Positions 33,697 to 39,776 of a DNA stretch of 64,000 bases are shown here, piece after piece. The first letter of the stretch is position 1, and every line of letters begins with the position of its first letter. The DNA is from Arthrobacter sp. MYb213 (GTDB lineage: Bacteria; Actinomycetota; Actinomycetes; Actinomycetales; Micrococcaceae). The stretch is from positions 310,001 to 374,000 of the forward strand of contig NZ_PCQA01000003.1 of assembly GCF_002979915.1 (NCBI RefSeq). The letters run 5' to 3'. The notes beneath the pieces are model-generated. The model saw only the letters and a program-made list of their open reading frames with translations. It did no database searches and was not told the DNA's origin. The translations under genes and the position numbers were made by a program.

Positions 33697-34068
33697 TTAG
33701 CTTTTGACTGCCAGCACCGGACAGCCAGCCTCGATCAAAATGCGCTGGGCGATGCTTCCCATCAGTAGTTTTCCCACTCGTGAGCGTTTGCGTAGCCCTA
33801 AGACGATCATCGAAACTTCGTGTTCCTGTTCGGCTTGAAGCACGAAGTCGGCGCCGTCATGAACCATCGGGTTCGGTGGCAAGATCTGAACTGGCACACC
33901 GAAATCCATCAAGGTGTTTAGGTCTATACCTAGCTGATCTTCGGTCACCTGTCCTTTTTCAAGATTGGCGACCAACAACGAATCCTGTGACTTATGTGCC
34001 TCGGCTAATCCGCGGCGTATGGCAGCGCGCCCCGACTCGGTGTCGCTATAACAAGCCAAGATGGCCAT
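33697..34068 (-). CDS. Universal stress protein (UspA) family protein
   Basis: A 123-residue single-domain UspA protein. The C-terminal motif GLRKRSRVGKLLMGSIAQRI is the glycine-rich nucleotide-binding loop of the ATP-binding subgroup. It is 27 bases downstream of the TctA-TctB gene on the same strand and ends at a strong terminator. UspA genes are often found with TctABC and other secondary transporters, where they may modulate transport; that role is inference here. Confidence 0.92.
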   Translation of the reverse strand: MAILACYSDTESGRAAIRRGLAEAHKSQDSLLVANLEKGQVTEDQLGIDLNTLMDFGVPVQILPPNPMVHDGADFVLQAEQEHEVSMIVLGLRKRSRVGKLLMGSIAQRILIEAGCPVLAVKS

Positions 34069-34095: not shown

Positions 34096-36267
34096 CTACA
34101 ACCACGAGGTCAAGATCCCCTGGGGGAGATCGATAGGTAGCAATGATGGCAGTGCCAGCATCAGGATAAAGAAGACAAGGGTGTAGATGATTGTCGTCTT
34201 AATTTTTGCCCTAGCTACCAGTAACAAGAACGCCGGGATGAAGATTGATATCGCTGCCAGGTAGCCGATAAGTCCGGTCAGCAACAAGAAGCCGGCCATC
34301 CAGGCGAAGGTACGGAATGCGAAGGACGCATCTTGGGTCCAACCTGCGCCCCAACCAAACTTACCGGTCTTTGGCAGGTCACCGGACTGAATTCCACCCG
34401 GACCAGCCGGCTTCAACTGAGCTGGGCTGCCGGCAGCCACTGACCCGGAAGGGCTTTGCGCGGTGCCGCTGGTGGCATGCGTCGAAGCCAGCTGGAGGCT
34501 TTGACCTGGTGCGGTCGCGTAAGCGCTCGCGTTCACATTGACTCGGCGCAGTGAGGCCAGAGAAATCTTTCGTAAGCTCAGCTCCTGCAGTATCAACACC
34601 ACTGCCATGATCACTCCGATCCAACCGACAAGTTGCGGTACCAATCGAGCGTCAGGGGAGTAACCGGCCGACATGACCAGGGTGCTGGTGAAGATCACCA
34701 GTAGCACGGCGGCGGTCACCAAGGACCAGACCGAGTTCTTTAGTGGTGCTTCTGGATCAGGAGCACTCTCAGACTTTGGATCATCATCAGCGTTCAACTT
34801 ACGGCGAGCACGTACCCACTTGAAGACGTTCCAAAGAATTGGAAGGAGAAGAATCGCGATGAACACCATGGTGCCCGGACGTAGCATCCATTCGAAACCT
34901 TCGTACAGGCTATCGGTGAGGAAGTAGTAGCGTTCCAGCGGGATGGCCAGCACAAAGCCGATGAGGAATGGTGCGCGAGGGAAACCGGTGGACTTCAACA
35001 GCCAGCCTGCAACACCGAGGAGCAACATGACCCACAGGTCACCGATCTGGCCACCGTCCTGGAAGGAACCTAGCAACATGACAACTACCAAGCCGGCAGC
35101 CAAAATGGCGAAGGGAACCTTGGTCAGTGAAGAGAGCGGACGCACGGTCAAGAAGCAGAACAGTGCACCCAATACCGAGGCAATCGCGAAGGACCAGATG
35201 ATCAAGTACATCAGGTCTAGGTGTTCGTTGATAATACTTGGACCGGGCTGAATGCCATAGGTCAGCAGCATGCCAAGAAGCATTGCTGAAGGTACGCCGC
35301 CTGGGATGCCGAACAGGAAGGTAGGGATCAGGTCGCCGGCTTCCACCGAGTTATTTGCGCTTTCCGGTCCGACGATTCCGCGAGGGTCGCCCTTACCGAA
35401 CTGAGTCTTATCTTTGGCGGTAGCAACTGCCTGACCATAGGCCAACCAGGTGCCTGCGGTAGCGCCGACGCCGGGAAGAATACCGGCCCAGATACCAATG
35501 AGACCGCCGCGTAGTACCTGGCTCCAGTGTGTGAGCCATTCACGGATACCTTCACCCCATCCGCCGTCAACCTTCACCTGCGTCTTATCGCCGCGGCGCT
35601 GGCTTGCACGAGAAGCGATTTCAGCGAGACCGAAGACGCCCAAGGCTACCGCGACTAGGGACAAACCATCACCTAAGAAGAGTGATCCGAAGGTGAAGCG
35701 TTCTTCGGCGGTGGTAGGTGAGGTGCCAATCATGCCGACCATCAAACCAAGTACGCCTGCGGTCAGTCCCTTGATGACATTTCCTCGGGAGAGAACCGCT
35801 GCCAAGGCCACACCGAGCACGGTGAGCATGAATAGCTCTGGGCTGGCGAACGACAGGACCAGTGGACGAGCCAAAGGAATGGCTAGGGTCAGGCCGATGG
35901 CGCCAATGACGCCGCCTGCCATAGAGGAGAGGAAAGCCAGGCTCAAGGCCCGTTTAGCCTGTCCCTTTTTAGCCATGGAATACCCGTCAAGCATGGTGAC
36001 CGACGCCGAGGCAGAACCCGGGGCGCCTAGCAATACCGCAGAGACGGTATCCGAGGTGTGCACTACGGCAAGGGCGCCGATGAGCATTGCCAGCGCGGGG
36101 GCTGGTTCCATGCCGAAGGTAATCGGCAACAAGATGGCTACGGCGGCGGTGCCGCCTAGGCCAGGAATGAGTCCCATGACCAGGCCGGCAACTACACCTA
36201 CCAGCAGCATCAGCAGCAAGGCAGGATCCGTCAGCGAAACCAATGCGGTCATTGCAGAATCTAACAT
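34096..36267 (-). CDS. TctA-TctB fusion, membrane component of a tripartite tricarboxylate transporter
   Basis: A 723-residue polytopic membrane protein. Residues 1 to about 495 are TctA: GLIPGLGGTAAVAILLPITF, LLGAPGSASASVTMLDGYSM and many transmembrane segments. Residues about 510-723 hold four hydrophobic segments of a TctB domain, interrupted by a roughly 60-residue Ala/Ser/Pro/Gly-rich cytoplasmic-type insert. TctA and TctB are normally separate (about 500 and 150 residues). AAGGAGCG precedes the ATG, ten bases after the PrpF-TctC gene. The transporter imports carboxylates driven by an ion gradient, with substrate delivered by TctC. Confidence 0.9.
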   Translation of the reverse strand: MLDSAMTALVSLTDPALLLMLLVGVVAGLVMGLIPGLGGTAAVAILLPITFGMEPAPALAMLIGALAVVHTSDTVSAVLLGAPGSASASVTMLDGYSMAKKGQAKRALSLAFLSSMAGGVIGAIGLTLAIPLARPLVLSFASPELFMLTVLGVALAAVLSRGNVIKGLTAGVLGLMVGMIGTSPTTAEERFTFGSLFLGDGLSLVAVALGVFGLAEIASRASQRRGDKTQVKVDGGWGEGIREWLTHWSQVLRGGLIGIWAGILPGVGATAGTWLAYGQAVATAKDKTQFGKGDPRGIVGPESANNSVEAGDLIPTFLFGIPGGVPSAMLLGMLLTYGIQPGPSIINEHLDLMYLIIWSFAIASVLGALFCFLTVRPLSSLTKVPFAILAAGLVVVMLLGSFQDGGQIGDLWVMLLLGVAGWLLKSTGFPRAPFLIGFVLAIPLERYYFLTDSLYEGFEWMLRPGTMVFIAILLLPILWNVFKWVRARRKLNADDDPKSESAPDPEAPLKNSVWSLVTAAVLLVIFTSTLVMSAGYSPDARLVPQLVGWIGVIMAVVLILQELSLRKISLASLRRVNVNASAYATAPGQSLQLASTHATSGTAQSPSGSVAAGSPAQLKPAGPGGIQSGDLPKTGKFGWGAGWTQDASFAFRTFAWMAGFLLLTGLIGYLAAISIFIPAFLLLVARAKIKTTIIYTLVFFILMLALPSLLPIDLPQGILTSWL

Positions 36268-36277
36268 TGTTCGCTCC

Positions 36278-38599
36278 TTAGTGAATTTCTATTTCGTAGG
36301 AGTCCTTGAGCAAGTTGGTGACGTAGCTCTTGGTCTCCTCACTGACGGTGTAGGCTTCCTTAACTCGCTCTGCGAGCTGGTCATCGGCAACGATCGGGTA
36401 ACCGCCAAGGATGTCTTCGGCGCGATCGTTGAACTCTTTATTCTCCGAAAGCTCATGGGCCGATTCGCGTAAGAGGTCAATGGATTCGGCCGGTGCATCG
36501 TGTGGAGCCCACAAACCCTTTTGGTAGGTGTAGGTCAACCCGAGCAGCGTGCGGTAGGCCTCAAGTTTTTCGCCTTCTGGTGCTTGTCCATGAATTTTTT
36601 CGTAGGCTTCCACCACGGTCGGAACATCGGGGAAGTTTGGGTCCCGAACAATTTCGCCCTTGTCATTGAGCTGACCAAAAGACATCAATACTTTCGCCGA
36701 ACCATCTTCTGCAATCGGACGGACTGCCGAGTCATAGGAGGAGGTGGTGGTGTAGTCGATATCTACCTCTCCTCGCTGCAGCGCCAGGTTGACTGGTCCG
36801 CGACCTTCAAAGCCGAAGGTGGAAGAAATGTCGGCGTCCAACAGATCAAAGGCGACCAAGGTGGTTAGATCCAAGCCGGTGGCGGCAATGCCGCCAAAGA
36901 CTAGTGGCTTGTCGCGGTCCACCAGATCTTTGACACTGTTGATCCCTGCATCGGTGCGTCCGTAGATGACCCCGCCGGTGCCGTTGACCATAATTGGTTC
37001 GAGTTTGTCGAAGGAGTAACGCACCACGTCACGTCCCAAGACCCAGGGCACCACCGTGGTGGCGGTGCTGACCAGCAGCTCGGTCCCGTTATCGTTGGCC
37101 GAGCTGGCAAAACGATTACTTCCGGTAATTCCTTCGCCGCCGGACTCGTTGACCGGGGCGAACCCCGGCACTCCGGGGATCTCGTGGATGAGTTCTTGAC
37201 CGATGAAACGAGCCCAGGTGTCGGTGCCGCCGCCTTCGGCTAGCGGGATGACTACTTCGAGTGTTTCTCCGGCGTAGTCGCCATCGGTGGTAGTGGCAGG
37301 AGGATTGAGCAAGCCACCTCCGAGCAGGGTAGCTCCGAGACCCAGTGCTGCGAAAATTGCGACGGAGGCGAAGACCGTACGGCGCTTATGTGGTGCCGGA
37401 TCGGGTTGCTCTGCGTCATCCACTTCGGTGATCAGCGGTTCATCAAATTCTACGAGATCAGAATTTAGCTGCATGCTTGCAGGTACCGATTCGCTGCCTT
37501 CTACTGGGTCAAAGCTCAGTGTTGCCTGTGCCAGCAGCCGCGCGGTCCGCGTGGTGCCAACCACCTCGTCGCCAGCGATGTCCCGATGCCAGGTTTCGAT
37601 GACTCCGGCCGGTGATTGGAGGCGTAGCTTCTCGGTGATGGGTTTGGTCAAGAGCGCGTCGATGACCGAGCCCTCGGTTCGAGCCGCAAGGGTCAAGCCG
37701 ACGCTGCCGGTGATTGCTAACGCCGGGTGCGGTGCACCCATGGAGAGCATCATGACGTTGAAGTCGCAGTCTGAATTTGCTTCGCTCGCGGTGACGATGG
37801 CGAGCTTAGGGATAGCCCGTTGCGCCGATTGTGCATCGGTGGCCAAACCCATGGCTACGGCTCCGGCACGGCGAATTTGATCTAGCCGGTCAAGCTCGGT
37901 CAGTGATTCGGTGGGCCACGAGGCGAAGTCCAGGTTGTTCAACTGTGCGTCGGTGGCGTTGATGATGACCAGTGGAGCGCCGGCATCTAGCAAGGCGGCG
38001 GTGACCGTCTGGGCGGTCTCATCCTGCGAGGATCCGATGCTGAGCGTGGTTCGTGGCTCACCGGTGGGTAGTAGTTTGCCGGTAGTTCCGCCAGCGGGGT
38101 TCACAAAGCCAATTTCTACCGCTTCGCCGGGGAAGGGTACGCCTGGGATGTAGGTGTTTGCTGGTAGGTCGGTTGCCGGTGCGGCAATTCGTTCGTGTAG
38201 CACCTGTCCGGTGTTGGTATTGCGGATGTTTACCGAGACTTCGCCGTTAACTGCACTAACCCAGCCTTGGTCAAGTGCGTAGGGCGCGATGACCGCAGAG
38301 CAGTTTCCGCAGTTACTGCCCCAATCGACCACTGCCTGTTCGATACCAACCTGCGCAAAGGTGTAATCAACGTCGATTCCAGGTTCATTGCTTGGGCTGA
38401 GGATGACGGCCTTGCTGGTCGTGGAGCTTCCACCACCTACGCCGTCGATTTGGCGTGGGTCGGGAGAGCCGAAGAGCCGTAGAAGCACCTCGTCAACGGT
38501 AAAGCCTGGGATCTGGAGCGCGCTCCGCTCGAACACCCAGCATTTGCTGGTTCCCCCACGCATCCAGGTTGCCTTAACTATTCGTTTAATTGGACTCAC
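36278..38599 (-). CDS. PrpF-family isomerase fused through one transmembrane helix to a TctC substrate-binding domain
   Basis: A 773-residue two-domain protein in one uninterrupted frame. Residues 1 to about 365 are a PrpF (aconitate isomerase/DUF453) domain: WMRGGTSKC at the N-terminus, the conserved Lys in TSKAVIL (K63) and Cys in SNCGNCS (C97). An acidic linker (366-403) leads to HKRR and one hydrophobic helix (about 408-430), then a TctC domain (445-773; VVIPLAEGGGTDTWARFIG). The positive-inside rule puts PrpF in the cytoplasm and TctC outside. There is no lipobox Cys. Relatives of PrpF isomerise aconitate, 2-methylaconitate, methylitaconate or oxalomesaconate, so an unsaturated di- or tricarboxylate is the probable transported substrate (inference). 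Start GTG 38599, weak ribosome-binding site. Confidence 0.9.
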   Translation of the reverse strand: MSPIKRIVKATWMRGGTSKCWVFERSALQIPGFTVDEVLLRLFGSPDPRQIDGVGGGSSTTSKAVILSPSNEPGIDVDYTFAQVGIEQAVVDWGSNCGNCSAVIAPYALDQGWVSAVNGEVSVNIRNTNTGQVLHERIAAPATDLPANTYIPGVPFPGEAVEIGFVNPAGGTTGKLLPTGEPRTTLSIGSSQDETAQTVTAALLDAGAPLVIINATDAQLNNLDFASWPTESLTELDRLDQIRRAGAVAMGLATDAQSAQRAIPKLAIVTASEANSDCDFNVMMLSMGAPHPALAITGSVGLTLAARTEGSVIDALLTKPITEKLRLQSPAGVIETWHRDIAGDEVVGTTRTARLLAQATLSFDPVEGSESVPASMQLNSDLVEFDEPLITEVDDAEQPDPAPHKRRTVFASVAIFAALGLGATLLGGGLLNPPATTTDGDYAGETLEVVIPLAEGGGTDTWARFIGQELIHEIPGVPGFAPVNESGGEGITGSNRFASSANDNGTELLVSTATTVVPWVLGRDVVRYSFDKLEPIMVNGTGGVIYGRTDAGINSVKDLVDRDKPLVFGGIAATGLDLTTLVAFDLLDADISSTFGFEGRGPVNLALQRGEVDIDYTTTSSYDSAVRPIAEDGSAKVLMSFGQLNDKGEIVRDPNFPDVPTVVEAYEKIHGQAPEGEKLEAYRTLLGLTYTYQKGLWAPHDAPAESIDLLRESAHELSENKEFNDRAEDILGGYPIVADDQLAERVKEAYTVSEETKSYVTNLLKDSYEIEIH

Positions 38600-38727: not shown

Positions 38728-38870
38728 TTTGTTGCATTTTCTAGGGTGGTAGTCGGTGTATTTGTGGAATTCTCCGGCACCGCAGGTGCGAAATTTAGGA
38801 AAATACCACCGAGTATCCAGTAAATGTTCTAGTTATGGAGTACCTTGAAGTATTGCTACAAGGAGATCAC

Positions 38871-39776
38871 GTGCTTGATGTTAAAAGATTGCAAATCTTA
38901 CTCGCAGTAGTCGAAGGCGGCTCGGTGACAGCCGCGGCAGATGAGCTTTTTTATACGCCTTCGGGTGTTTCGCAGCAGTTGCGCAAACTTGAAGAAGAAG
39001 TTGGGCAGCCACTGTTGCAACGTCATGCGCGTGGCATGATTCCCACCGATGCCGGACATGTGCTGGCCAATCACGCGCGGAGTATCCTGCAGCAAATGGA
39101 TGCAGCGGTAGCGGACCTTGGTCAGCTCGCCGGGCTGAATAGCGGGAGCCTGAGTCTTGGCACATTCCCCACCCTGGGTAGCTCGTTTATGCCATTGGTC
39201 ATCAGTCGATTCCGCAAAATGTATCCATCAATCAAACTTGATGTCCGCAGTACCCGGCTTCAAGAGCTCATGGCTTTACTCTCCAAGGGGGAGATCTCCC
39301 TAGGGCTGCTCTGGGAGTATGAATGGCTGCGATTGAACCGCAAAGATTTTGAACTAACCACCTTATTTACCGAACCGACGGTACTGGTGGTCGGGGTGGA
39401 ACATCCGTTAGCTCAGCGGGAGGAGGTTGATATGGCCGATACCGCTCGCGAACAATGGATCGTTCGAGCTAACGAGCACCCAGTGGCAGAGCTCTTGGAA
39501 AGGACCTGCAACTCCGCAGGCTTCTCGCCGAAAATTTCTTTTCAGGCCAATGACTATCAGGAGGCCCAAGCGATGGTCTCGGTAGGGCTAGGTATTGCCT
39601 TGGCGCCGAAATCTGCGGTGATGAATCATCATCCGGGCGTGAAGGTGTTATCCCTCGGGCAAGGTGCTGCCTCGCGAAGTGTAGTCCTCGCGCAACGCCG
39701 GGATCGTGTGCGCGCTCCGGCAGAAAATGCCTTTCAGTCGCTGCTGGTGGAAATGGGCCAAACTTGGATCCGATAA
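38871..39776 (+). CDS. LysR-family regulator of the tricarboxylate transporter
   Basis: A 301-residue LTTR. The GTG at 38871 has AAGGAG six bases upstream and directly precedes the winged helix (LDVKRLQILLAVVEGGSVTA, then the recognition helix SGVSQQLRKLEE). The C-terminal effector domain follows. It is divergent from the PrpF-TctC/TctAB/UspA operon, the usual arrangement for an LTTR and its target, so it probably activates the transporter in response to the carboxylate. Confidence 0.92.
   Translation: MLDVKRLQILLAVVEGGSVTAAADELFYTPSGVSQQLRKLEEEVGQPLLQRHARGMIPTDAGHVLANHARSILQQMDAAVADLGQLAGLNSGSLSLGTFPTLGSSFMPLVISRFRKMYPSIKLDVRSTRLQELMALLSKGEISLGLLWEYEWLRLNRKDFELTTLFTEPTVLVVGVEHPLAQREEVDMADTAREQWIVRANEHPVAELLERTCNSAGFSPKISFQANDYQEAQAMVSVGLGIALAPKSAVMNHHPGVKVLSLGQGAASRSVVLAQRRDRVRAPAENAFQSLLVEMGQTWIR

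Follow-up and report, generated by a model that had tools for sequence, protein, structure and literature searches.

The window (the whole 64,000-nucleotide stretch analysed here, from Arthrobacter sp. MYb213 and assigned to the genus Glutamicibacter) was found to carry a gene in which a PrpF-type isomerase and a TctC-type solute-binding protein are encoded in one frame and joined through a hydrophobic helix. The gene lies with genes for a TctA protein and a UspA-like protein on the minus strand, next to a divergent gene for a LysR-type regulator (Table 1).

Table 1. Features of the prpF-tctC locus, with positions in the window
Feature	Position	Strand	Details
prpF-tctC fusion gene	36278..38599	-	773 aa; GTG start; single 773-codon frame
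PrpF isomerase domain, residues 1-366	37502..38599	-	Lys63 and Cys97 present
Acidic, Pro-rich disordered linker, residues 367-404	37388..37501	-	pLDDT and codon constraint
Met376 codon, candidate internal start, unsupported	37472..37474	-	
Lys-Arg-Arg and hydrophobic helix, residues 405-431, Tat-like signal anchor	37307..37387	-	Hydropathy; conserved Arg-Arg
Juxtamembrane motif NPPATTTDGDYAGE, residues 432-445	37265..37306	-	Similar in fused and split relatives
TctC solute-binding domain, residues 440-773	36278..37282	-	Fold and profile similarity
TctA with TctB-like end	34096..36267	-	723 aa; ATG 10 bases 3' of fusion gene; Pfam
UspA-like protein, after tctAB	33697..34068	-	123 aa; Pfam Usp
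Divergent LysR-type regulator	38835..39776	+	313 aa; Pfam

The PrpF half matches Pfam family PF04303 with 243.6 bits (cut-off 27) over residues 8-356. Lys63 and Cys97, to which the earlier note had drawn attention, align with the catalytic residues K73 and C107 of Shewanella PrpF and are invariant in all 29 rows. The half falls below the NCBIfam equivalog cut-offs both for 4-oxalomesaconate tautomerase (NF033377; 235.1 of 440 bits), which is its nearest NCBIfam model although far under the cut-off, and for 2-methylaconitate isomerase PrpF (TIGR02334; 184.2 of 440.55 bits). Its best sequence match among solved structures is methylitaconate isomerase. The Shewanella oneidensis PrpF structures (2pvz, 2pw0, 5k87) and 3-methylitaconate isomerase (3g7k) are single-domain proteins of 379-389 residues with 31-32% identity. 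The TctC half has the TctC/Bug fold and profile similarity to that family but is divergent, just missing the Pfam PF03401 gathering score (23.9 vs 27 bits). In the structure model, residues 368-435 (the linker and helix region) have a pLDDT below 50.

The TctA protein scores 425.5 bits against Pfam TctA and has hydrophobic segments at residues 509-560 and 649-710; Pfam does not recognise TctB in its TctB-like end. A low-complexity insert is present at about residues 575-640 of the same protein. TctA accompanies TctC in all 60 examined loci having both prpF and tctC (43 of them distinct). Clustering of 40 loci (39 relatives plus the window, with some loci from the same genome) found the LysR cluster in 36 of them and the UspA-like cluster in seven, the window among these. 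The layout resembles the tripartite tricarboxylate (TTT) transporters TctCBA described in passages of a review (PMC5812351) in its TctC fold, in the downstream position of TctA and in the fusion of the TctB-like part to TctA, fused TctAB being called rare there. It differs in that TctC, otherwise a separate binding protein in those passages, forms the C-terminal half of a protein that begins with an enzyme. Among the papers listed for PrpF with TctC, for TTT systems and for transporter-enzyme and aconitate isomerase fusions, this architecture was absent from titles and abstract openings. A PrpF domain joined through a helix to TctC is an unusual architecture; TTT uptake together with PrpF isomerisation is of a known kind.

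Nine of 18 Glutamicibacter genomes match the fusion protein and nine have no match. The whole fusion occupies one open frame of 773-803 aa in five species (the window's genome, G000, and G002, G008, G007 and G006), the orthologues of the four other species being 71-83% identical to that of the window. The claim of a one-frame PrpF-helix-TctC chimera is therefore borne out, with both folds found, and a sequencing frameshift in the window, which the earlier note had named among the findings that would overturn it, is ruled out by the same open frame in four further species. That note had also proposed looking for conservation of the fusion beside TctA(-TctB), and this holds within the genus. A sixth matching genome, G013, has a fusion gene interrupted by a frameshift 3' of the helix, likely a sequence error or decay, since its tctA is frameshifted too; the remaining three have PrpF matches only. 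The loci L007, L055 and L011 show these two frameshifted genes of G013, which is Arthrobacter sp. S41.

Selection on the joined frame was assessed in the two testable (gap-free) linker pairs of the genus. In frame 0, changes were found at 27.8 of 35.7 synonymous vs 31.2 of 117.3 nonsynonymous sites in one pair (p 5e-8) and at 21.2 of 31.7 vs 19.8 of 94.3 sites in the other (p 4e-6). In frames 1 and 2 of both pairs no codon constraint was detected (p 0.7-1) and stops are present. A chance open frame in GC-rich DNA is ruled out by this constraint. In three linker pairs of the fused sister group, codon constraint in frame 0 is not clear (p 0.18, 0.023, and 0.25). Strong purifying selection acts on both folded halves, in which dN is much smaller than dS (between G007 and G006, 0.08 vs 0.61 in PrpF and 0.05 vs 0.46 in TctC). 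The fusion is a real, conserved and derived enzyme-receptor chimera. At another locus (L135:1378-3525) a 715-aa frame has a first part which is not protein-like, with PrpF starting inside it; it looks like upstream read-through and is a warning for fusion calls made from the frame alone. The long "open frames" of G037 and G345 contain a stop after PrpF.

Most of the fetched relatives with both genes have prpF and tctC separate (L022, L023, L026-L037, L045-L053 and L056-L060; Arthrobacter, Pseudarthrobacter and Sinomonas where named). Their gene content and order are like those of the window and their TctC part is about 65-70% identical to it, but their prpF has a stop and their tctC has its own start, mostly with a Shine-Dalgarno (SD) sequence. 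In a midpoint-rooted tree of 42 rows from 43 distinct loci (L106, with a frameshifted TctC, was left out), all fused rows form a single clade (99/96), with the split genes, including the outgroups, on the other side. Glutamicibacter together with the frameshifted G013 forms a clade within it (100/100). All but two of the 14 fused-clade species (L007 and L024, both frameshifted) keep the frame open, and the linkers across the clade vary in sequence and in length (42, 44, 51, 55, 58, 69, and 72 aa). In the 30 split-class rows (two of them frameshifted) the phase from prpF to tctC is 0, 1 and 2 in 12, 7 and 11 rows, respectively, while the 13 fused rows are in phase 0 by definition.

A search at the family level gave matches in 186 of 395 genomes, with at least 12 intact fused frames among the loci fetched. 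The distribution of the fusion within genera is patchy: in the genus of G188, seven of 15 genomes match and two have the fusion, and in that of G184 all 10 match, with four intact fusions and one frameshifted (G118). At the class level 63 of 394 genomes match and, among the matches listed, only that of the window covers both halves; G571 and G569, also among the matches listed, have near matches to both halves which lie in different frames by their coordinates. Six further regions comprised four with split prpF-tctC (one of which, L214, is the same record as the Kocuria locus L107), one with split prpF-matC and one with prpF and neither partner. Independent fusions elsewhere were rejected from the class search and these six regions.

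The earlier note had raised the possibility that the TctC part is made as a separate protein from an internal start, for example Met376. This is very likely in sister genera and unsupported for the window. Where the genes are split, relatives near the window start tctC separately, for the most part at an ATG preceded by an SD, and this start typically lies 57-67 codons 5' of the TctC domain. The fused sister group (L016-L021, L024 and L025, the prpF of L024 being frameshifted) retains an SD of -8.5 to -10.8 kcal/mol and an ATG or GTG at the corresponding place inside the joined frame, and as this signal is strong these genera probably make free TctC besides the fusion, as from a nested gene. 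In Glutamicibacter the best SD at candidate TctC starts is -3.0 kcal/mol at Met376 of the window, -2.5 in G008, -1.5 in G007 and 0.0 in G006, as against about -3 to -11 kcal/mol in split tctC genes, although the true split lineage L033/L045 is also weak at about -3, a caveat on any argument from a weak SD. G002 has a TTG with an SD of -5.9 kcal/mol, yet this lies within the end of PrpF. At the tctA starts of these operons, the SDs reach -7.4 to -10.7 kcal/mol in four species (the window, at -7.4, G002, G008, and G006). The G007 and G006 linkers contain no Met, no start codon is common to the Glutamicibacter linkers, and no sigma-70-like site was found on the coding strand between 36200 and 38900. 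An internal start at Met376 was rejected for Glutamicibacter on account of the weak SD, the lack of a shared Met and the codon constraint on the linker.

Judged from these start and stop signals, Glutamicibacter has lost a recognisable TctC start, leaving an obligate fusion. The order of events read from the relatives is separate genes, then loss of the prpF stop with the internal start kept, then loss of that start. All of these stages survive in living relatives, as separate genes, a joined frame with an internal start, and the obligate fusion.

The helix appears to be older than the fusion. The Lys-Arg-Arg motif and helix, described in the earlier note as part of the link between the two domains, are present as stated, but they are no new linker helix; they correspond to a Tat-like anchor belonging to TctC itself and are found in split relatives. 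Arg-Arg precedes the helix in 42 of 46 distinct TctC sequences, as it does in Tat substrates, and the window is one of these; its genome contains a TatC gene. The four others are L121, with none, L038 and L125, of the lipobox type, and the frameshifted row L011. The outgroup sequences from Prauserella, Saccharomonospora, and Kocuria have Tat-lipoprotein-like signals (e.g., SRRNFLIGGALGVAAAGLAGC), and in this lipobox type Arg-Arg is preceded by 5-6 residues and the uncharged run measures 15-18. No lipobox is seen in split TctC proteins from the window's clade, where the stretch ahead of Arg-Arg is longer, at 21-38 residues, as is the uncharged run, at 20-24. We infer that the receptor was at first cleaved and lipid-anchored and then turned into a signal-anchored protein with its N terminus in and C terminus out, a step that permitted enzyme fusion; since a cytosolic tail is already predicted before Arg-Arg in split TctC, an enzyme of the cytosol could be attached there with no topological conflict. 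The Arg-Arg helix of the window would accordingly be a signal anchor of uncleaved appearance. As for the export route, the close relative L121 does without Arg-Arg, so Tat is not obligatory and a Sec/SRP route is possible.

The best model, in which moderate confidence is placed, is a single membrane-anchored unit for the import and isomerisation of an unsaturated di- or tricarboxylate, most likely trans-aconitate. The PrpF half would fold in the cytoplasm, and the uncleaved Tat-like Arg-Arg anchor would keep the N terminus inside while the TctC half is carried out. Outside, TctC would bind the unsaturated di- or tricarboxylate and pass it to TctAB, and the tethered isomerase would meet the substrate emerging from TctAB, supplying the TCA cycle with cis-aconitate made from trans-aconitate before the latter could inhibit aconitase. 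The divergently encoded LysR protein is the likely inducer. Passages of PMC13188880 state that trans-aconitate inhibits aconitase and that its fate is decided by transporters; such inhibition would be a reason for isomerising at the membrane. The mechanism is plausible; its substrate, topology and export route and the physical coupling of import and isomerisation are inferred.

A known system close to this one is the trans-aconitate system tarR-tarA-tarB of Bacillus velezensis, described in PMC11495376, which has a divergent LysR-type regulator and, in one operon, an isomerase of the PrpF superfamily and its importer, with isomerisation following uptake as proposed for the window. The importer described there is an MFS protein, whereas in the window it is a TTT system whose receptor is covalently linked to the isomerase. 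From gene layout and protein family, the window system is a candidate for a tar-like role in trans-aconitate use. The same report notes that more trans-aconitate transporters need identifying, and a TTT system can here be named as a candidate importer. A methylcitrate role for PrpF is less likely, as the window's genome has one PrpF match and two MmgE/PrpD-family genes, which make such a role less needed. Tricarballylate was rejected as the substrate in this organism, in whose genome no TcuA scores above the cut-off (best 40.8 bits vs 369). TcuA is encoded near split prpF-tctC-tctA in Prauserella (L118:2168-3640, 539.6 bits; L115:3310-4782, 523 bits; cut-off 369), which suggests that tricarboxylates are the right neighbourhood, and a relative in Pseudonocardia (L061) falls just under the cut-off at 363 bits. 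Clustering alone also pointed to TcuA-like genes in L099 and L112.

The joined frame could also be a passive outcome, in which first the prpF stop and then the tctC start were lost and the halves work as before, with a fixed ratio as the only gain. Such a history is possible though somewhat unlikely: it needs just the two losses, both of which are visible in relatives, and it agrees with a linker that is disordered in the model, variable in sequence and length and without clear codon constraint in the sister group, but the frame has stayed open in all but two of the fused-clade species despite linkers of 42-72 aa, and a whole clade has given up the separate start although extra receptor would result from it. 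That Glutamicibacter still produces free TctC, whether from an internal start that escaped recognition or through proteolysis within or after the helix, with the joined frame incidental, is improbable. Sister genera do have an SD and a start codon within the joined frame, and the small residues (GGG) after the helix might, from their sequence alone, permit cleavage by signal peptidase; this is opposed by the weak SDs and absence of a shared start codon in the Glutamicibacter linkers, by the lack of a sigma-70-like site on the coding strand over the stretch searched and by a codon constraint which spans the linker as a whole.

In sensors such as ToxR and CadC, a cytosolic domain is connected through a helix to a ligand-binding domain outside. 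The fusion resembles these in layout, and the TctC ligand might alter the activity or location of PrpF, which would then be a signalling domain and not a metabolic enzyme. The catalytic residues of PrpF are kept, however, Pfam shows no signalling domain in the fusion protein, the model shows a disordered linker and the gene already has a LysR regulator as its neighbour, all of which make a sensor highly improbable. A membrane-anchored import-and-isomerise unit is the preferred reading, and a membrane-spanning enzyme-receptor chimera of this kind would directly test the physical coupling of import and the first catabolic step.

A segment like that around the TctC helix was also identified in permeases. 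At the PrpF locus of many Arthrobacter relatives, LysR and PrpF are accompanied by a MatC_N/CitMHS permease, and the N terminus of this permease, with a cytosolic tail, an Arg-rich motif, a helix and GG..NPAAT, resembles that of TctC. The control set comprised 238 other segments (a basic pair and a helix) from the window and the fetched loci. Fifty-seven of 62 permease segments outscore the best control (maximum 52), a count which, like those that follow, is not a set of independent tests, as the rows are related; the top two controls themselves look like permeases of the same family. The segment is likely common to TctC and the permease by shared descent.

Among permeases with PrpF directly upstream, 53 of 60 score at least 47; the seven low-scoring ones are the distant L124, L129, and L131, without the segment, and L008, L013, L014, and L015 of the window's own genus, with a diverged one. 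The three distant loci speak against any general rule that a permease paired with PrpF must bear the Arg-helix segment. Where PrpF lies elsewhere in the stretch, eight of 12 permeases have the segment (scores 62-86, all beside TctC systems) and four do not. The 23 permeases whose stretch lacks PrpF all score at most 29; they are distant except L181, which has 83% identity and a trace of the segment without Arg-Arg. It is conceivable, if rather doubtful, that Arg-Arg-helix-GG-NP(A)T is an interchangeable membrane module which gathers PrpF isomerases at importers in Micrococcaceae, where it forms the N terminus of two unrelated transport proteins paired with PrpF, TctC and the MatC/CitMHS-type permease, and which in Glutamicibacter has become joined to PrpF itself. 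On this view an import-isomerisation complex that already existed, channelling an aconitase-inhibiting tricarboxylate across the membrane, would have been made covalent by the fusion. Segment-bearing permeases are found, for example, at L063:7183-8631, L064:7126-8574 and L053:9993-11438, and in Paeniglutamicibacter a second prpF (L054:11286-12353), followed by a MatC-like permease, lies about 3 kb 3' of the fused gene.
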